A stretch of DNA of 43,901 nt from a virus. Positions 32,102-42,261 of this stretch are shown here, piece by piece. The position numbers were made by a program, and so were the translations under genes. The notes beneath the pieces were generated by a model, which was not told the DNA's origin, did no database searches, and saw only the letters and a program-made list of their open reading frames with translations. Every line of letters begins with the position of its first letter. Position 1 is the stretch's first letter. The stretch is taken from IMG/VR virus record IMGVR_UViG_3300042514_000632, positions 1 through 43,901 of that record; one strand, 5' to 3'.

Positions 32102-32267
32102 TTAAATATTTTGTGAGGTCATCACGGAAGTACCTCTTGTGACCACCTTTGGTGGTGAAAGTCCTCACTTGACCATTTCTGGCAAGAGATTCAAGCCTTA
32201 TCCGTCCAATTTTAGCAAAGAGCATCGCTTTTTGACGAGACAAGAGTGTCGGATAGTAGATTTCCAT
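32082..32267 (-). CDS. Small helix-turn-helix protein (MerR/excisionase-like)
   Basis: A 61-residue protein. FAKIGRIRLESLARNGQVRT followed by FTTKGGHKRYFRDDLTKYLN is the HTH_17/excisionase motif: helix, then a wing reading GGHKRYF. It lies between large terminase (TAATG contact) and portal (20-base overlap). Without an integrase in the genome an excisionase role is unlikely; regulation of the late operon or a small terminase-like role is possible. Confidence 0.72.
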   Translation of the reverse strand: MEIYYPTLLSRQKAMLFAKIGRIRLESLARNGQVRTFTTKGGHKRYFRDDLTKYLNEILQK

Positions 32268-33874
32268 TAGTACGAGCCTCCTCCCCAGCCTCGCATAGCG
32301 TCATTTCCTTGATATTGAGGATTCATTGTCATTAGGTATCGCAAGCAGTCGATAGGGTCTTTGGTAGCCCCTTTATCTCCATCCTGTCCTGTCCACTCCT
32401 TAAGGCAGTAGATTAGGTTCTCACAGGACTCTGCGATATAAAGTTTAGGCTTGTTAAGAGGACTTATCTCTTGGTTGTAGTCGTAGGCAAAGCCGTCATT
32501 AATCATTGCCACGCCTTGCTCGATTCGGATTCCTGCGGCTGGCTGAAAGTGCATAGGGTTTTCACCATCGTCAAGCATCTCTATGAGGGTAGTGCCTCCT
32601 TCGTCAGTAACAGCCTTTGTACCGCCAGCACGAGGGTCGATATAACGCTCCCAGATGACCTCTCCGTCTTCTAGGTCTAGAATCATCTGCTTGTAATCAG
32701 CCAGAGACCGCCCTGCTCCGTTTCTTTGGGCTGTTCCTGCCTTTCCGTCAGGCTCGCCAGAGGGCAACGCCCATTCGCCATCTGAAGTGTCTGGGAACTC
32801 CCTGTAGACATATATAGAGCCTTCCTTGTCAACCCTCGCCCAGAGCATAAACCAATTTCTAGCCCCAGCAGGGTCGGTAATGAAGTAGTTCGTGCCTTCC
32901 TTAGGGACAGCCTCGTCTTTGACAACATTAATTTCTGGGTTGAATCGTGGGAATTGGCTACCGCTGACATTATCAGCCCAGCCGTATGCACGAATTTTAA
33001 TCTCATAAGACTTCTTGCCAGCAAGGGTCTTCTTTAAGTTTTCAAAGGGGTTGTACGGATTGAGTTGGCTGTGAAACCACATCACCGCAGACGAACGATT
33101 AAACGACTTCGCCTTGTACGGCATATGACCACGAGGGCAACCCATCACATTCTGGGAGTCAGGGAGCAATGGCGATTCCTTGGTCTCGTAAATCTTAGCA
33201 CCACTTACATATTCTTTTACTACAGAACTGTACCCAGAGATAGGCGTAAATGTGACAACCATTTTGCCCATACGAGTGACAGCACGATAGCGTAGCGTTT
33301 CAACCCAATCAAGCGGCACGAGTTCATCGCACCAGATGAAGTCAACCTCGCCACCTTCAATGACATCTCGCTTCTGAGCGTAGTTCATAAAGAAGCATTG
33401 GCTCTTGTTAGGCAGAATAAAGGTGTTATCGCTGAATCCGTTCTTTTGAGTGTACTGAACATTCTGAACTTTGTTCTTCCTTAGTTCCTTGAACTCTGAG
33501 GGCAGGTACTTATATATGACATTCTGTTGCATCTGAATGCTCGACTGGTTTGTCGTATGCAAGCACCACACCCTAGCATCTTTTATATTTATAAGCGTCT
33601 GGACAACTCTCTTAGCCGCCCATTCCGTTTTGGACGCTCGGTTACCACCAAGGATGAGAACTTCATTGTTCTCTTTTAGCAACTGGTCGGCTTCCTTCCA
33701 ATGTGGCAAATCAAATCCGTGTCGGTAGGGGTCAAGTTTCTCAGCAAGTATCTTGTCCTCCCGCAGGGTTAAAATCTCAGCAGTCTTCTCAGCCCCTACT
33801 CGTTCAGCCAGTTTCTTGATGTCCTCTTGAGAAGGAGTAACAAGAATAGGATGAGGAGTGGGAGTGAAAGCCAT
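32267..33874 (-). CDS. terL: Terminase large subunit
   Basis: A 535-residue protein. The ATPase has a variant Walker A (GGNRASKT at about 76-83) and Walker B VDFIWCDE at about 177-184, with ITPIS-type coupling residues around VVTFTPISGY. The RNase H-like nuclease follows with YFITDPAG (near 334) and RYIDPRAGG (near 411), each carrying the expected acidic residue, and DPIDCLRYL near the end. It packages DNA through the portal encoded two genes downstream. The start ATATGG lacks a Shine-Dalgarno sequence. Confidence 0.9.
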   Translation of the reverse strand: MAFTPTPHPILVTPSQEDIKKLAERVGAEKTAEILTLREDKILAEKLDPYRHGFDLPHWKEADQLLKENNEVLILGGNRASKTEWAAKRVVQTLINIKDARVWCLHTTNQSSIQMQQNVIYKYLPSEFKELRKNKVQNVQYTQKNGFSDNTFILPNKSQCFFMNYAQKRDVIEGGEVDFIWCDELVPLDWVETLRYRAVTRMGKMVVTFTPISGYSSVVKEYVSGAKIYETKESPLLPDSQNVMGCPRGHMPYKAKSFNRSSAVMWFHSQLNPYNPFENLKKTLAGKKSYEIKIRAYGWADNVSGSQFPRFNPEINVVKDEAVPKEGTNYFITDPAGARNWFMLWARVDKEGSIYVYREFPDTSDGEWALPSGEPDGKAGTAQRNGAGRSLADYKQMILDLEDGEVIWERYIDPRAGGTKAVTDEGGTTLIEMLDDGENPMHFQPAAGIRIEQGVAMINDGFAYDYNQEISPLNKPKLYIAESCENLIYCLKEWTGQDGDKGATKDPIDCLRYLMTMNPQYQGNDAMRGWGGGSY

Positions 33875-34431: not shown

Positions 34432-34505
34432 TAGGGGCGGGGGGAGTCGAACCCTCCGACTTAAGCCTTATAAAGACTCCACTCTAACCGCTGAGTTACG
34501 CCCCC
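34432..34505 (-). tRNA. tRNA-Ile (UAU anticodon)
   Basis: A cloverleaf on the minus strand with acceptor GGGGGCG/CGCCCCT, D-stem ACTC/GAGT and anticodon loop TTTATAA between GAGTC and GGCTT. The U34 anticodon reads AUA. One A-C mismatch in the T-stem. Confidence 0.85.
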
Positions 34506-34512
34506 TTTAAAA

Positions 34513-34585
34513 TACGGCAAGCGGGGGTCGAACCCGCAACATCCAGTTTGGAAAACTGACACTCTGCCAATTGAGTTACTGCCGT
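34513..34585 (-). tRNA. tRNA-Gly (UCC anticodon)
   Basis: Cloverleaf with acceptor ACGGCAG/TTGCCGT, anticodon stem TCAGT/ACTGG and loop TTTCCAA, T-loop TTCGACC. The body closely resembles E. coli tRNA-Gly(UCC). Reads GGA. Confidence 0.88.
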
Positions 34586-34590
34586 GAAAG

Positions 34591-34671
34591 TGCGGAAAGT
34601 AGGACTTGAACCTACAAGCCTTTCGGCAACCGATTTTAAGTCGGTCGTGTATACCATTTCACCAGTTCCGC
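34591..34671 (-). tRNA. tRNA-Leu (UAA anticodon)
   Basis: Class II cloverleaf with long variable arm (TTGCCGAAAGGCTT), anticodon stem ACCGA/TCGGT and loop CTTAAAA, T-loop TTCAAGT. Acceptor GCGGAAC/TTTCCGC has a mismatch at its last pair. Reads UUA. Confidence 0.88.
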
Positions 34672-34678
34672 TAAAGTA

Positions 34679-34751
34679 TGGGACTGGCTGGACTTGAACC
34701 AGCAACAAACGGCTTAAAAGGCCGCTACTCTAACCATTGAGTTACAATCCC
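34679..34751 (-). tRNA. tRNA-Lys (UUU anticodon)
   Basis: Cloverleaf with acceptor GGGATTG/CAGTCCC, anticodon stem GCGGC/GCCGT and loop CTTTTAA, T-stem GCTGG/CCAGC around TTCAAGT. Reads AAA. Confidence 0.88.
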
Positions 34752-34767
34752 GAATAATGCGTCAAAC

Positions 34768-34839
34768 TCGACCCTCTAGGAATCGAACCTAGATGACCCG
34801 CTTAGAAGGCGGGTGTTCTATCCGTTGAACTAAGGGTCG
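34768..34839 (-). tRNA. tRNA-Arg (UCU anticodon)
   Basis: Cloverleaf with acceptor CGACCCT/AGGGTCG, anticodon stem CCCGC/GCGGG and loop CTTCTAA, T-loop TTCGATT. Reads AGA. Confidence 0.9.
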
Positions 34840-34844
34840 CAAAA

Positions 34845-34929
34845 TAGAGGGGGTCGGATTTGAACCCACGAGGCTTTTACACCTGCTAGTTTTCAAGACT
34901 AGTGCAATAGACCACTCTGCCACCCCTCT
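34845..34929 (-). tRNA. tRNA-Ser (UGA anticodon)
   Basis: Class II cloverleaf with variable arm (AGGTGTAAAAGCCT), anticodon stem CTAGT/ACTAG and loop CTTGAAA, T-loop TTCAAAT, acceptor AGAGGGG/CCCCTCT. Reads UCA. Confidence 0.88.
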
Positions 34930-34932
34930 GAA

Positions 34933-35033
34933 AGAGGAGGGTGGGTAGGATTCTAGCCCTACCGATGGATGTCGGTTAATCAGTTTACGCTATTATGCCA
35001 TTTAGACCTGTATTAACATTCACTCACATCCTC
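34933..35033 (-). ncRNA. Long structured RNA element inside the tRNA array (not a normal tRNA)
   Basis: About 100 bases occupy a tRNA-like slot. On the minus strand the 5' end GAGGATG can pair with CCTCCTC at the 3' end, as an acceptor stem would, but the inside is not a cloverleaf. GGATGT pairs with ACATCC, and GTTAAT-A-CAG pairs with CTGATTAAC to make a nine-pair stem around a 24-base loop. A second hairpin (GGTAGG GCTAGAAT CCTACC) resembles a T-arm with a non-canonical loop. It could be a decayed tRNA, a processing signal or a new small RNA. Structure seen by base complementarity only. Confidence 0.5.
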
Positions 35034-35057
35034 TGGTTGTCCAGAGCACCCAAGGTG

Positions 35058-35129
35058 AGCCTTGTGTAGGGATTGAACCTACGACCTACTGTTTACAAAA
35101 CAGTCGCACTACCGCTGTGCTAACAAGGC
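35058..35129 (-). tRNA. tRNA-Thr (UGU anticodon)
   Basis: Cloverleaf with acceptor GCCTTGT/ACAAGGC, anticodon stem ACTGT/ACAGT around TTTGTAA, T-stem GTAGG/CCTAC around TTCAATC. Reads ACA. First tRNA after the promoter at 35147-35175. Confidence 0.88.
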
Positions 35130-35286: not shown

Positions 35287-35880
35287 TATACACGCATTCG
35301 GTGCTTGACACAACACCTTTTAACCTCCCCCATACCCCCTCGTACGCTCGCTGAGTGTCGCTCGCTTCATTGACTAGACTTATTGCTATAAAAAAAGTCT
35401 CTGGCTAGACCCGTTCAAAAACAGACAAAAGAAAAAAGTAAAGACCCCCCCCTCCCCTATGGTCGGGGCTGAAGTTATATAATAAAGCAATAGAAGTTGC
35501 TATAGAAGTATTATAGAACAGTCTATTATATAACCGCTATAGAATATTATATAAGGCTTCTTATAGAAGTATAGGGCTGAGGGTGAAAACGGATTCAGTC
35601 AGTCTATATCCTTTCTAGTAGAAGATGAGAATGGATTGAGAATACAGCCGAATCAATTGGATAGAGGTGAGTGTAAAGGAAGTGTAAAAAGCAAATCTAT
35701 CTGCTGTCTGGCAAGGGTATTAGGTGTGCTACTGGGGTGGATTAGCCGTGGTTATGGTGGCTCTAGGAGGGTGGCTTGTGTCAGGGGTAGGCTAGGTATG
35801 GGCGAGGCTATCAAAGGGCTTCTCAGGGCAAGCCAGAGGGCTTCTAGGGGGTGATTCTGGGGTGCTGGTGGTCGGGACAG
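35287..35880. other. Noncoding segment with TATAGAA boxes and repeat remnants
   Basis: No convincing gene. Four TATAGAA boxes (35501-35507, 35512-35518, 35538-35544, 35562-35568) and a variant at 35489-35495 lie in an AT-rich stretch of 100 bases, which may be an origin or binding array. From 35660 on there are degraded, inverted pieces of the right-arm noncoding repeat: GTGAGTGTAAA near 35667 and CTAGGAGGGTGGCTTGT at 35762-35778. A 72-codon frame here has no support. Confidence 0.55.
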
Positions 35881-35934: not shown

Positions 35935-36399
35935 TCAGCCCTCGATGGGGTCGCTGGCGTAGTGGGCGGCACGAGCCGTGACGAGGTCGAGGCGGCAGGC
36001 GTGGACTTCAGAGGCGAGGGCGAGTTCGCTCATATTCTCAAGGCTGGCTTCCAAGTGGCGAGCCGTGAAGAGAGCCTGCTCCAGAATCTGGACGAACAAC
36101 TGGTCGTTGAACTGGCAGATATATTCAACGCCATCCGTCTGGTTCGTGCTGTCATCCACGCTGTTGATGAAGCGAGGGAGAGGGCGAGAGACCATAGGCA
36201 GGTGACCATTGATGAGGTCGCTGAAGTTCTGCTCCAATTGCTCGATGGCAGGCAGGTCGTTCTGGAGGTTGGCGTTCAGCCCGAAGTCAGCCGTGCCGAC
36301 CTCAATGGCTTGGCTGGCGAGACCAGTAAGGCGAGCGATTGAGCCGTAAACGAGGGAGGCTTTGGCGAGGGAGGTCATAGTGCGGATGGTGTTTTTCAT
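35935..36399 (-). CDS. Hypothetical helical protein
   Basis: A 154-residue, mostly helical protein (IRTMTSLAKASLVYGSIARL at the N-terminus; LVTARAAHYASDPIEG at the end). No family recognised. It has its own right-arm promoter and the last bases of the leader read CACCACAT before the ATG, a variant of the conserved CACCACGCAT. A terminator follows. Confidence 0.65.
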   Translation of the reverse strand: MKNTIRTMTSLAKASLVYGSIARLTGLASQAIEVGTADFGLNANLQNDLPAIEQLEQNFSDLINGHLPMVSRPLPRFINSVDDSTNQTDGVEYICQFNDQLFVQILEQALFTARHLEASLENMSELALASEVHACRLDLVTARAAHYASDPIEG

Positions 36400-36423
36400 A
36401 TGTGGTGTAGTGGGTACTGGGCT

Positions 36424-37259: not shown

Positions 37260-37288
37260 CTCTCTAGAGCAAGACATTTGATTGTCAA
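37260..37288 (-). promoter_or_regulatory. Possible promoter of the 37238 gene
   Basis: TTGACA (37283-37288) is 50 bases from the ATG, as in the neighbours, but its -10 (AGAGAG) is poor. A second pair, TATACA and TATACT 17 bases apart, lies around 37335-37365. Either may be used. Confidence 0.35.
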
Positions 37289-37405
37289 AAAGTTGTAAAA
37301 AATCTCAAAAAAATCGGTAAAAAACAACAAATCTATAGTATAACACAGTTTCTCGGTTCTGTATATAGTTATTATCGGAAATATTTAGGGGGGTCAGGTG
37401 ATTTA

Positions 37406-37574
37406 GTTCTTGTTTTTACAATCGTTTTACACTCACCAACCGACCCCTAGCAAACCCCTATAAACATTGGGTGGAATCGCTATGCCCTCACAAATGCCCT
37501 ACAAGGCTCTTGCAAGGGTCAGTCCATACCTTGGTAAGGGTCAATACAAGCCACCCTCCTAGGGCATCCTAGCG
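37406..37574 (+). repeat. Right-arm noncoding repeat, copy 1
   Basis: About 170 bases shared in order with three other copies: a tandem 11-mer block (TTTTACAATCGTTTTACACT), AAACCCCTATAAACATTGGG, ATGCCCT, AAGG, GGTAAGGGT, GCCACCCT and AGGGCATCCTAG. No reading frame is conserved. It lies upstream of the 37.2-35.9 kb cluster. Confidence 0.85.
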
Positions 37575-37653
37575 AACTAGTGAACACCTGTTCACCTGCT
37601 CACCTGTTCACCCTCTGGTTGTGAATAACTTTCTGAGGTCAGGCTGAAGATTG

Positions 37654-37827
37654 TCCTTGTATTTACAATTGTTTTACACTCACCAGCGAGGCTCAGCAAA
37701 CCCTTGATTTCATTGGGTCAAATGAGTGTCCTCTGTAAATGCCTTTTAAGGGGGGTATCAGGTCTTGCTAGGGTCAGGACTCAGGTGACCAGAAGCCACC
37801 CTCTGAGGGCATCCTAGAGCCTTCTAG
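37654..37827 (+). repeat. Right-arm noncoding repeat, copy 2
   Basis: Same block order as copy 1, 80 bases further on. Strongest conservation at TTTACAATTGTTTTACACTC, AAACCC...ATTGGG, and GCCACCCT...AGGGCATCCTAG. The CCC/GGG arms around an 11-base loop are kept, suggesting a small hairpin. Confidence 0.85.
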
Positions 37828-37832
37828 ACGGC

Positions 37833-37854
37833 AAAAAGCCCCCAGTTAGGGGGC
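37833..37854 (-). terminator. Terminator of the 39.8-37.9 kb cluster
   Basis: On the minus strand, AGCCCCC TAACT GGGGGCT followed by TTTTT, 26 bases after the ArdC-like stop. The loop resembles that of the terminator at 35886. Confidence 0.8.
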
Positions 37855-37879
37855 TAGTCACCAGCCTAGGGGCTGAGGC

Positions 37880-38734
37880 TTACGCCTCGACCTCCTCGCT
37901 GACCTCAGCCTGCTCCTCGACCTTGGTCAGGGCGGTGAAGCGTTTGAAGGCTTCAGAGGCGGCTGAGAGGATGAGGGTCTTGTCACCCTTCAGAGCCGTG
38001 AGCCAGTTCTGGACATAGGCGGTTGCGTTAGTGGTGACCTCAGGGGCTTCCAGTCCGCACTCAGCGAGGCAGAGGCTGGAGAACAGTTCAGCGACCAGTT
38101 CCTCCTTAGCGTAAGGCTCAGAGCCAAAGCCAGTAGAGTGCGTACCCTTTTCCTTGAGGGAGTGACCAATTTCGTGGAAGAGGGTAGCGTAGTAATGAGC
38201 CACGGACTTGAAGGAGTCCTTGGAGGGCATACCAATCGTGTGGGAGGAGGGCTTGAAGTAGGCGGCAGAGCCTCCGTGCGTCACAGGGGTGGTCGAGAGG
38301 CTAGCGAGACGCTCAGCGGACTGGTCAGGGGTGAAGGAGATGACCTTGTCCATACGCTTGAAGACCTTGCCGTCAGCCAGCGTCACCTTGTTCATAGGGA
38401 AGACATTGTAGTACCTGCGGAGGAGGAACTCCTTCTTGTCCTTAGACTTGGCGGCATCAATCTTGGAGAAGAACTGGACAGGCATAGACTTAGTACCCTT
38501 CTCCAGAGTGCCGCCCAGAGCCTTAATCTGGTTGAAGGTGAGGTAGTAGTTGTCGCTACCGAAAAAGCCTAGGATGAAGGCGTTGACTCCGCTGTAAGCC
38601 TTGCGGCTGATAGCGTTCTGGACGCTAACGGACTTCCAAGGCTTCTGCCAAGGGATAGTGCCGTTTTCGAGGGCGAGGATGAACTTGTCAGCGAGGATAT
38701 CAGCGACAGTAACTTTGGCAGGGGTGGTGGTCAT
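37880..38734 (-). CDS. ArdC-like anti-restriction protein
   Basis: A 284-residue protein with the two ArdC parts. Residues about 7-130 match the ArdC N-terminal single-strand DNA-binding domain (GTIPWQKPW, SRKAYSGVNAFILG, LTFNQIKALGG). The C-terminal part is a zincin-like metallopeptidase: LFHEIGHS (187-192) and the downstream YAKEELVAEL acidic ligand. ArdC proteins from plasmids shield incoming DNA from restriction enzymes, so this gene probably protects the genome early in infection. It is last in a four-gene cluster and is followed by a terminator. Confidence 0.85.
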   Translation of the reverse strand: MTTTPAKVTVADILADKFILALENGTIPWQKPWKSVSVQNAISRKAYSGVNAFILGFFGSDNYYLTFNQIKALGGTLEKGTKSMPVQFFSKIDAAKSKDKKEFLLRRYYNVFPMNKVTLADGKVFKRMDKVISFTPDQSAERLASLSTTPVTHGGSAAYFKPSSHTIGMPSKDSFKSVAHYYATLFHEIGHSLKEKGTHSTGFGSEPYAKEELVAELFSSLCLAECGLEAPEVTTNATAYVQNWLTALKGDKTLILSAASEAFKRFTALTKVEEQAEVSEEVEA

Positions 38735-38758
38735 ATGCGTGGTGGTAGGTGCAAACCT

Positions 38759-38787
38759 GAAGATAGGGAGGGCTAGCCTCAGGTCAA
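38759..38787 (-). promoter_or_regulatory. Right-arm promoter of the ArdC-like gene
   Basis: TTGACC (38782-38787), 17 bases, ATCTTC (38759-38764), 25 bases to the ATG. Upstream lies a pair of ATTGTTACAG boxes. Confidence 0.5.
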
Positions 38788-38804
38788 GCGTATAGGCTCT
38801 TTAT

Positions 38805-38834
38805 ATTGTTACAGTTGTGTGACGATTGTTACAG
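38805..38834. promoter_or_regulatory. Twin ATTGTTACAG operator
   Basis: ATTGTTACAG at 38805-38814 and 38825-38834, exactly 20 bases apart (two helix turns), just upstream of the -35 of the ArdC-like gene. The same arrangement occurs at 39832. Confidence 0.7.
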
Positions 38835-38836
38835 CC

Positions 38837-39181
38837 TCAAGTCTTCAACTTGTAGGTGCGTTCAGCCTGAGCCTTGACCTTCTTGTAGAGGTTGTAGTCG
38901 TGGCAGGGCATCTCTCCAGCCCTGCGGAGGATTGCTTGGCTATGGATACGGAGGTCGCTCGTGTGCTTCTGGAGGGCAGACTTGAACTGACCGCCAGTCC
39001 GAGAGCGAGCCTTCAGGCTCTTGACCAGAGCGTGATTGCACTCAGCGTGGTCGAGGAGTTCCTCTAGGCTCAGGCAGTACTTAGGGGTGGAGAAGTAGCA
39101 GTAGATGCCGCCCTCAGCCTTCTGGCGAGCGTAGACGAGGCTGGAGATGGATTCCTTGCGGGGGGTGAATGCGATGGTCAT
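38837..39181 (-). CDS. Hypothetical protein
   Basis: A 114-residue protein with several His and Cys residues (YCYFSTPKYCLSLEELLDHA, HDYNLYKKVKAQAERTYKLK). No recognised domain. CACCACGCAT precedes the ATG and a TTGACA-N17-TTCATT promoter lies in front. Confidence 0.65.
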   Translation of the reverse strand: MTIAFTPRKESISSLVYARQKAEGGIYCYFSTPKYCLSLEELLDHAECNHALVKSLKARSRTGGQFKSALQKHTSDLRIHSQAILRRAGEMPCHDYNLYKKVKAQAERTYKLKT

Positions 39182-39202
39182 ATGCGTGGTGGGTAGATAG
39201 GT

Positions 39203-39231
39203 AATGAATCAGAGGGTTTCCTTCTTGTCAA
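39203..39231 (-). promoter_or_regulatory. Right-arm promoter of the 39181 gene
   Basis: TTGACA (39226-39231), 17 bases ending CTCTGA, TTCATT (39203-39208), 21 bases to the ATG. Confidence 0.65.
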
Positions 39232-39460
39232 CATCCTTTACGAGCAAGCCAAAGGAGGCGTGGAACTTCTTGTTCAGGCTCGACCAGCGTTCAGTCCCCT
39301 TGACCTCTACGCCAACCTTGGCGAGCCAGACCTTGGAGAGGTGGCGAATCATAGAGGGGTGGCAGTAGCAGTACATCTTGTGCTTGTCAGCCATAATGAG
39401 GGCGTGGCTGAGGCTGATGAGTTGGAGGCGTTCAAAGCCGTCTAGGGTGATGGTTTTCAT
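39209..39460 (-). CDS. Hypothetical protein
   Basis: An 83-residue basic protein with a Cys/His stretch (KMYCYCHPSMIRHLSKVWLA). A similar short YCY motif occurs in the downstream neighbour (GIYCYFS), so the two may be distantly related. Leader variant CACACCTAAT before the ATG. Confidence 0.62.
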   Translation of the reverse strand: MKTITLDGFERLQLISLSHALIMADKHKMYCYCHPSMIRHLSKVWLAKVGVEVKGTERWSSLNKKFHASFGLLVKDVDKKETL

Positions 39461-39483
39461 ATTAGGTGTGGTAGGAGATAGGT

Positions 39484-39512
39484 AATGAATCAGGTAGTTG
39501 GGTGAGTGTCAA
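39484..39512 (-). promoter_or_regulatory. Right-arm promoter of the 39460 gene
   Basis: TTGACA (39507-39512), 17 bases ending CCTGA, TTCATT (39484-39489), 23 bases to the ATG. Confidence 0.65.
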
Positions 39513-39524
39513 ATCTATTTGCAC

Positions 39525-39773
39525 TTACTTATTCACAGGCAGGTCAGCCTTGTGCATCGCATCAGAGAGCAGGCTGTAGGCGTAACCGAGATTCTTGCGT
39601 GCGGCAAGGGCGTAGTCTTCAGCGTACCCAAGGTACTCCTTGTGGCGTTCAAGCGAGGCAGGGGTCAGCCCCTTCTCTGAGTTAGCGACAGCGTAGTTGT
39701 CACTAGCGAGCCGCAGGTACTTATGACCCTGCTCCTCGTAAGTTCTGATTTGGGCGGCGATGGTTTTATTCAT
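39525..39773 (-). CDS. Hypothetical helical protein
   Basis: An 82-residue protein, probably two helices in a hairpin (KTIAAQIRTYEEQGHKYLRL, HKEYLGYAEDYALAARKNLG). First gene of the 39.8-37.9 kb cluster; leader CACCACGCAC. Unknown function. Confidence 0.62.
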   Translation of the reverse strand: MNKTIAAQIRTYEEQGHKYLRLASDNYAVANSEKGLTPASLERHKEYLGYAEDYALAARKNLGYAYSLLSDAMHKADLPVNK

Positions 39774-39818
39774 AGTAGGTGCGTGGTGCGACTAGGAAGG
39801 TGTACATATCCTATCTAG

Positions 39819-39860
39819 GTACAAGGATATAATTGTTACAGTTATGTGTCGATTGTTACG
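39819..39860. promoter_or_regulatory. Promoter region with second twin ATTGTTAC operator
   Basis: A weak -35 (TTGTAC on the minus strand, 39819-39824) is 51 bases from the ATG at 39773. ATTGTTAC boxes at 39832 and 39852 are again 20 bases apart, 8 bases upstream of the -35. Confidence 0.55.
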
Positions 39861-39880
39861 ATTGTGGGCAGGTGTAAATG

Positions 39881-40056
39881 GTTCTTGTTTTTACAATCGT
39901 TTTACACTCAGGGGTCACCCCCTTGACAACGCACCTCTACTCCTTGGTATTCAGGCACTTACAGAAGTGTATCAAGTGCCTTGCACAAATGCCCCTAGGA
40001 GGCGTTTACGAGGGGTAGTCCATAGCGTGGTAAGGGCTGATACATACCCCCCTTAG
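39881..40056 (+). repeat. Right-arm noncoding repeat, copy 3
   Basis: Keeps the 11-mer block (TTTTTACAATCGTTTTACAC), CACAAATGCCCCT, GTGGTAAGGG and the CCCCCCTTAG end; the ATTGGG block is lost and replaced by a stretch with inverted CACTTACAGAAGTG. Confidence 0.75.
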
Positions 40057-40170
40057 AATCGAACGCCCATTAGGACGGCTAATGCCCCCATTAGGACTCC
40101 TTATGACTGCCTGCCAAGGCTATTTAGTGCTTGAAGTGAAGTATTCCTTGACACGCCGCCTGACACGCAG

Positions 40171-40301
40171 GAAACCCCTGTAAACATTGGGGATTATCAA
40201 TGCCCTTCACATTTGCCTTCTAAGGGGGGTATCGAGGGCTGTGAGGGTAGACACCAAGGCTACCCTACAAGGGCTTTGTAGGGCATCCTAGAGGGTTCTA
40301 G
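40171..40301 (+). repeat. Right-arm noncoding repeat, copy 4 (partial)
   Basis: Lacks the 11-mer block but keeps AAACCCCTGTAAACATTGGG, ATGCCCTTCAC, TAAGGGGGGTATC and AGGGCATCCTAGAG. It resembles copy 2 most closely. Confidence 0.8.
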
Positions 40302-40405: not shown

Positions 40406-40480
40406 GAGTAGGGGGAAGTTCACCTACTCGCTCTTTGAAAACTCTCGGCTGAACCTGCAATCTCGCAGGAGGCTGATACC
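40406..40480 (+). promoter_or_regulatory. Structured leader: hairpin, boxA-like element, second hairpin
   Basis: Hairpin GAGTAGG/CCTACTC (40406-40429) is followed by CGCTCTTTGAAAACT (40429-40443), which resembles the boxA antitermination element of rRNA leaders and lambda nut sites. Then comes hairpin CCTGC AATCTC GCAGG (40454-40469) and AGGCTGATACC. The second hairpin recurs before the 41091 gene. Confidence 0.6.
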
Positions 40481-40497
40481 TAAAAACACCAACGCAA

Positions 40498-41015: not shown

Positions 41016-41046
41016 CTTTCTGTTCGTTGACATCACTTTGGCTAAA

Positions 41047-41073
41047 CCAGCAAACCTGCTGGAGGCTAATACC
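41047..41073 (+). promoter_or_regulatory. Second copy of the leader hairpin
   Basis: CCAGC AAACCT GCTGG then AGGCTAATACC. Compared with 40454-40480, the stem changes are compensatory (CCTGC/GCAGG against CCAGC/GCTGG) and the hairpin is 29 bases from the ATG in both cases. Confidence 0.72.
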
Positions 41074-41090
41074 AAACCAAAAACACGCAT

Positions 41091-41525
41091 ATGAATACTG
41101 AAAATATTAATCCCAAACAAAAGTTCGCTGTTGAGGGCGTTCTACACGCTGATGCTAGCAGTCTCGACTGCACAGTAACGGCTGTCTACTACGGCTTCAA
41201 CTGCTCTCCTCGCCAAGTCCGCTATTACAAGTTGGACAAAAGCGTTGAAAGCATTTTGCAGGGCGGTTACACTCGCTCCAGCATTGTGAACTTCTTGTTC
41301 AAGGTTAAGGAAAAAATGCAAAAGGCTGAACTTAAACACGCTGAATACAAAGAAAAGGCTGAAGGTGTTCGTTTAAAGCAAAACACTAGCACCGACTCGT
41401 TAACCCGACAGGTTCTCCGCAAGGAGGCTTGTCGAATTGAGACTAAAATGTATAACTACGAGTACGAGGTCTTGGGCAAGTACCAGCGAGCCGTTGAGTC
41501 TCTGCGGAAGTTCCTAGAAGAGTGA
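41091..41525 (+). CDS. Hypothetical basic protein
   Basis: A 144-residue protein. The N-terminal third is strand-like (AVEGVLHADASSLDCTVTAV, SPRQVRYYKLDK); the rest is a long basic helix (FKVKEKMQKAELKHAEYKEK). Leader ends ACACGCAT before ATG. Function unknown. Confidence 0.65.
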   Translation: MNTENINPKQKFAVEGVLHADASSLDCTVTAVYYGFNCSPRQVRYYKLDKSVESILQGGYTRSSIVNFLFKVKEKMQKAELKHAEYKEKAEGVRLKQNTSTDSLTRQVLRKEACRIETKMYNYEYEVLGKYQRAVESLRKFLEE

Positions 41526-41555: not shown

Positions 41556-41595
41556 GGTTAAGTGATGACACTTTCCGTTCTTTTCCACCACGCAT

Positions 41596-41811: not shown

Positions 41812-41830
41812 TTCTCTTTCCACCACGCAT

Positions 41831-42065: not shown

Positions 42066-42261
42066 TGCCTAGATGCCTAGGCTGAGTGCCGCCTAGATGA
42101 CCTGAGGATGCCCTAGGAGGCTCTTTGATTCAGGGGGTGACCAAGGACTAGGGCTGGAATCAGGAGGTCTCAGAATCAATCCTACGAGCCGCCTGAAGAC
42201 CTTCCCTATTGTTCGGCTATAGAATCCAGTTATATGTAACCTGTCAATCTTATTCTGGCAC
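42066..42261. other. Noncoding segment between convergent clusters
   Basis: No gene visible. It holds GGATGCCCTAGGAGG, the reverse complement of the AGGGCATCC block of the right-arm repeat, near 42107-42121, and one TATAGAA box (42218-42224) like those near 35500. Confidence 0.5.

Follow-up and report, generated by a model that had tools for sequence, protein, structure and literature searches.

A repeated noncoding element of a freshwater tailed phage carries a 19-base core that recurs in dozens of phages and mobile elements otherwise unrelated to one another

In this phage a noncoding control element of about 185 bases is present three times in full and once in altered form. Its 19-base core recurs letter for letter in dozens of phages and mobile elements that share no other relationship, mostly among repeats resembling binding sites or beside integrase, primase, packaging or tRNA genes. 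The copies (units A to D) are tentatively read as sites at which a nucleoprotein complex would assemble, and control of early transcription or replication would be their most likely use.

The window (the whole stretch analysed, 43,901 nucleotides, IMG/VR record IMGVR_UViG_3300042514_000632) ends in a direct repeat of 158 bases with one mismatch, and contig L003 spans the junction of this repeat; the record therefore represents a tailed freshwater phage whose genome, about 43.7 kb long, is circular-complete. Hundreds of IMG/VR proteins are related to the major capsid protein. Close relatives were gathered through the contigs of these capsid protein relatives and through the ArdC-like protein encoded at 37880-38734, and the collections searched were metagenomic. 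A putative terminase gene (32267-33874), which gave no family match, was assigned by position and size and is a guess. Of 388 genomes in the phylum of the Verrucomicrobiales bin, 15 contain homologues of it, a distribution which suggests a host in Verrucomicrobiota. A cluster of seven tRNA genes was located at 34432-35129.

The initial annotation placed four diverged copies at 37406, 37654, 39881 and 40171, with inverted remnants elsewhere in the genome. All of these are real, although position 40171 falls on the core of D, whose unit starts at about 40126. The features are as follows.

37398 to 37581, plus strand: unit A, with T-type module, TRTAAAC-type core and tail
37410 to 37435, plus strand: module of A, TTGTTTTTACAATCGTTTTACACTCA
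37452 to 37470, plus strand: core of A, AAACCCCTATAAACATTGG
37560 to 37574, plus strand: tail of A
37645 to 37830, plus strand: unit B, with T-type module, TGATTTC-type core and tail
37657 to 37682, plus strand: module of B
37698 to 37716, plus strand: core of B, AAACCCTTGATTTCATTGG
37805 to 37819, plus strand: tail of B
39873 to 40060, plus strand: unit C, with T-type module and right half, a hairpin replacing the core
39885 to 39910, plus strand: module of C, identical to the module of A
39954 to 39980, plus strand: GGCACTT..AAGTGCC inverted repeat in C, at the place of the core
40126 to 40301, plus strand: unit D, with G-type module, TRTAAAC-type core and tail
40130 to 40155, plus strand: module of D, CTTGAAGTGAAGTATTCCTTGACACG
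40172 to 40190, plus strand: core of D, AAACCCCTGTAAACATTGG
40279 to 40293, plus strand: tail of D
35668 to 35693, minus strand: inverted copy of the T-type module
35760 to 35779, minus strand: inverted copy of the ACAAGCCACCCTCCTAG block of unit A, 95% identical over 20 nt
42105 to 42120, minus strand: inverted copy of the tail block of unit A, 16 of 16 nt

Local alignment scores between the copies were 73 (A-B), 60 (A-C), 52 (B-D), 46 (B-C), 45 (A-D) and 26 (C-D); dinucleotide shuffles never exceeded 29, and 300 random segments of the window never exceeded 26. All pairs except C-D thus lie far above chance, and because the C-D score is at chance level these two units are joined via A and B, not directly. 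Aligned independently of the blocks first described, the full units A, B and D have a layout which is almost free of indels, consisting of a paired TTG..TTKACA module, 41-42 nt, the 19-nt core, 107-108 nt and the tail. The distance from module to core is 42, 41 and 42 nt in A, B and D, respectively, and that from core to tail is 108, 107 and 107 nt, so that the spacing is near-constant and the copies are more than ordered blocks with variable gaps. Nor are the four copies all alike: C retains the module and the AAATGCC..AGTCCAT..TGGTAAGG half and has neither core nor tail. Each pair of units stands upstream of a leftward early operon.

The units were found at the same places in eight relatives (L001, L002, L004, L005, L006, L009, L049 and L237), as far as the contigs reach, with their order and near-identical spacing kept; the region at 35.7 kb with the inverted blocks is also conserved in relatives. 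One homologous unit was found in the more distant L066/L067, and a search with a second pattern, taken elsewhere in the unit, showed the full unit in this phage clade only. Units C and D showed 83-93% identity to those of L001, L004 and L005, and the next gene 70% in L001 and L005 and 84% in L004; in two of these three relatives the units are therefore better conserved than that gene. The selection on sites that had been suggested is supported by the retention of units and spacing, by this conservation and by the lack of a kept reading frame. The modules of A and B are T-type in the window and in L237 and G-type in L002, L006 and L009; C has a T-type and D a G-type module throughout, A and B switching together between relatives. 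This pattern indicates that modules have been exchanged between copies; recombination hot spots, also listed originally, would be a putative function of the repeats. An exception is L005, in which unit A has neither module type.

No conserved reading frame was found across the units, as first noted. In L004, L005 and L049, length differences of one base shift an ORF of 70 amino acids over C, and unit A is itself one base longer than B; such differences break any reading frame. The units were consequently rejected as a decayed gene. It is quite unlikely that they encode structured regulatory RNAs, one of the functions originally suggested. Such RNAs would agree with a length that barely changes over 185 nt, with predicted fold energies of about -46 to -91 kcal/mol for single copies, and with small palindromes near the tail (CTAG-N4-CTAG, CCCT-N3-AGGG) which vary with some compensation. 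However, the consensus of 15 copies folds with only -9.8 (plus strand) or -6.7 (minus strand) kcal/mol, the control being column shuffles in which dinucleotides are not kept, and the common fold with compensatory changes that a covariance analysis might have revealed was not found. A consensus for each copy type gives more energy, but the structure then differs between types. The units gave no Rfam match, and an Rfam search of the window returned tRNAs only. The joint variation of the tail palindromes would also fit DNA-binding sites. Based on the absence of a common fold and of a kept frame, the units are read as DNA sites and are probably not RNA. The put sites of phage HK022 are likewise cis elements near early promoters; they act as RNA with conserved hairpins, whereas no common fold was found for the units.

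Three further sites adjoin the units.

37278 to 37397, no strand: A+T-rich stretch preceding A
37580 to 37595, no strand: 16-bp palindrome GTGAACACCTGTTCAC, operator-like, its sole occurrence in the window
37620 to 37628, minus strand: DnaA-box-like site TTATTCACA, between A and B

The 100-base segment with the highest A+T content in the window starts at 37281. Promoter-like matches near 37.34 and 39.83 kb were not above chance. The modules contain TTGACA and were considered as sigma-70 promoters, a reading rejected because the scan gave no -10 element at 16-18 nt. A 28-nt repeat, ATTGTTACAGTTRTGTGNCGATTGTTAC, is found in two copies, 93% identical, at 38805-38832 and 39832-39859, upstream of two leftward genes. 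Two rightward genes have a common leader, GGCTnAACCnGC..GGAGGCTnATACC, at 40447-40481 and 41040-41074; it has no match in Rfam, and its hairpin changes from CCTGC/GCAGG to CCAGC/GCTGG between relatives, a compensatory change. In many early genes CACCACGCAT or a similar sequence replaces the Shine-Dalgarno sequence directly before the start codon (36395-36415, 38735-38750, 39182-39196, 41080-41093, 41581-41595 and 41817-41830).

An origin of replication was another of the functions first listed. The phage encodes an O-like initiator (1660-2355), followed by a gene for a DnaC-like loader. As in lambda, whose origin lies inside gene O, three 20-nt iterons forming imperfect palindromes are found inside the O-like gene (1969-2033) and are followed by A-rich DNA (whole layout 1969-2070); this locus is separate from the units, which are for that reason probably not the main origin. 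The layout can be made out within the O genes of L059, L066 and L260, less clearly in L227, although the iteron sequences diverge between relatives; all four also bear the core elsewhere, some 2-9 kb away. The units carry repeats other than the O-gene iterons, with only the DnaA-box-like site and A+T-rich DNA. An auxiliary origin is possible given these last two features beside A, and a similar DnaA-box-like site recurs close to the core in the distant relatives L033, L050, L134 and L260; elsewhere the core sits among repeats and near DUF5906-type primases. That the units are secondary origins or replication enhancers is nevertheless judged rather unlikely in view of the O-like initiator with its iterons and of the origin-like layouts away from the core in several relatives. 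The GC skew turns at 22.0 and 3.3 kb and is uninformative as an origin check. In phage P4 a directly repeated cis region of about 120 bp (crr) is needed besides ori1. The direct repeats, and GGTGAACAG-like repeats near unit A, resemble this arrangement; unlike P4, the phage has an O-like initiator, and no P4-alpha gene was seen among the scanned proteins. A literature search for the P4 sequence GGTGAACAG found no text.

The presence of the core far outside this phage group goes beyond the initial annotation. Using patterns taken from this window, by which the loci were also chosen, and with reversed patterns as the only control, AAACCCCTRTAAACATTGG was found in 38 IMG/VR viral stretches (about 10 of them this phage group itself) versus none for the reversed pattern, and in 30 genome stretches. 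The copy-B variant AAACCMYTGATTYYATTGG was found in at least 119 IMG/VR stretches versus 3. Fifty-nine of 79 distinct variant backgrounds lie outside long ORFs; some matches are coding, e.g. a lipoprotein start common to nine loci. With a pattern covering both variants, 45 of 50 records held exactly one match. Repeated 7-mers are more frequent in the flanks of the core than in random windows (p = 3e-9 for the variant, 6e-4 for the genome set and 0.08 for the viral TRTAAAC set), and the repeats differ by element. Base pairing of the flanks showed no clear excess across backgrounds, and a hairpin loop was dropped on this ground. A rolling-circle nick site was also rejected, since pSpnP1 has a separate TCTTGATA site upstream. 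A literature search using the core as text found nothing. The core seems to be inverted between relatives: in L033, L035, L038, L047 and L050 its orientation is opposite relative to a CTTGA..TTGAC module, and in L033 and L050 also relative to a DnaA-box-like site.

The genes nearest the core include integrases, primases, polymerases, homing endonucleases and small terminases, a listing made without a baseline of random phage genes. In proviruses and bacterial genomes, the core follows complete tRNA genes (Gly, Glu, Ser, Leu, Cys, Arg, Gln, Val, Thr and Pro) at a distance of up to about 25 nt or adjoins tRNA fragments, as expected for the ends of integrated elements. Among annotated records, BLAST matches of low significance (E about 1-7), which are anecdotes, lie in a Staphylococcus phage between the integrase and truncated hlb genes, in Legionella between dnaA and rpmH, and in pDTG1 adjoining mob genes. 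In genome G005 three cores (L302, L308 and L311) lie 8-10 nt downstream of three different tRNA genes (Gln, Leu and Val), with similar DNA on the side away from the tRNA; they may form one family of integrated elements whose tRNA targets differ.

These neighbours raise the question whether the units are relics of attachment sites multiplied after loss of an integrase. In several genomes and proviruses (e.g. L205) the core has an integrase gene on one side and, on the other, a tRNA 3' end or another attachment target, as also in Staphylococcus phiST9-C, a match of low significance, and in L161 it directly follows a tRNA gene. In the window, however, there is no integrase (PF00589) and no part of a tRNA beside the units, which are conserved rather than decaying; moreover, 38 of 50 core-bearing records, many of them fragments, show no tyrosine integrase. 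Such an origin is accordingly regarded as improbable. The resemblance to a lambda-type attP with its IHF H' site lies in a short, repeat-flanked bend-type site between attachment core and integrase gene, and copy B fits the IHF consensus; here there are several units, no integrase and no attachment core, and the main core variant does not have the IHF consensus. A role as DNA-packaging sites is very improbable: in a few records the genes closest to the core are small terminase genes, but the units occur in several copies and lie at least 3.5 kb from the putative terminase gene (32.3-33.9 kb).

The 13-bp IHF consensus is WATCAANNNNTTR (PMC7581858). It is matched exactly, on the minus strand, by the core of B together with the preceding C, and is not matched by A or D, unit C having no core. 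About half of 78 variant backgrounds have the outer base required by IHF. Among 398 genomes of the Roseomonas phylum just 1 contained the TGATTTT form of the motif, and the E. coli collection gave no match at the BLAST sensitivity used. Given the misfit of the A/D variant and this near-absence, an ordinary IHF site appears unlikely. The recurrence of the core beside attachment, replication and packaging functions suggests that a putative architectural DNA-binding protein, for which IHF is the obvious model, reads it.

Of the functions originally listed, enhancers, or assembly sites, fit best. The preferred reading, held tentatively, is that the units are cis-acting DNA sites for nucleoprotein assembly, in which the paired module would be the binding module, the core probably a bend or docking site, and the inverted repeats stand at set distances. 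A DNA-binding protein of the host, or one that is widely shared, would bind the core, and the duplicated units would serve early transcription and/or replication, given the position of each pair ahead of a leftward early operon. When mobile elements that are not related have a short exact sequence in common, it usually points to a shared host factor (parS, dif, DnaA boxes). It is conceivable, though doubtful, that the 19-23-nt core (AAACCnYTG, ATTTY or TAAAC, ATTGG) is an undescribed site of phages, plasmids and integrative elements of several phyla, that one widely distributed factor recognises it and aids attachment, replication and packaging complexes, and that it was multiplied into a modular early-control array in this clade. 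With a motif beside attachment, replication and packaging genes, such cis sites could be located simply in uncultured phages, and the duplicated copies would be a place for studying how phage control DNA evolves by module exchange.
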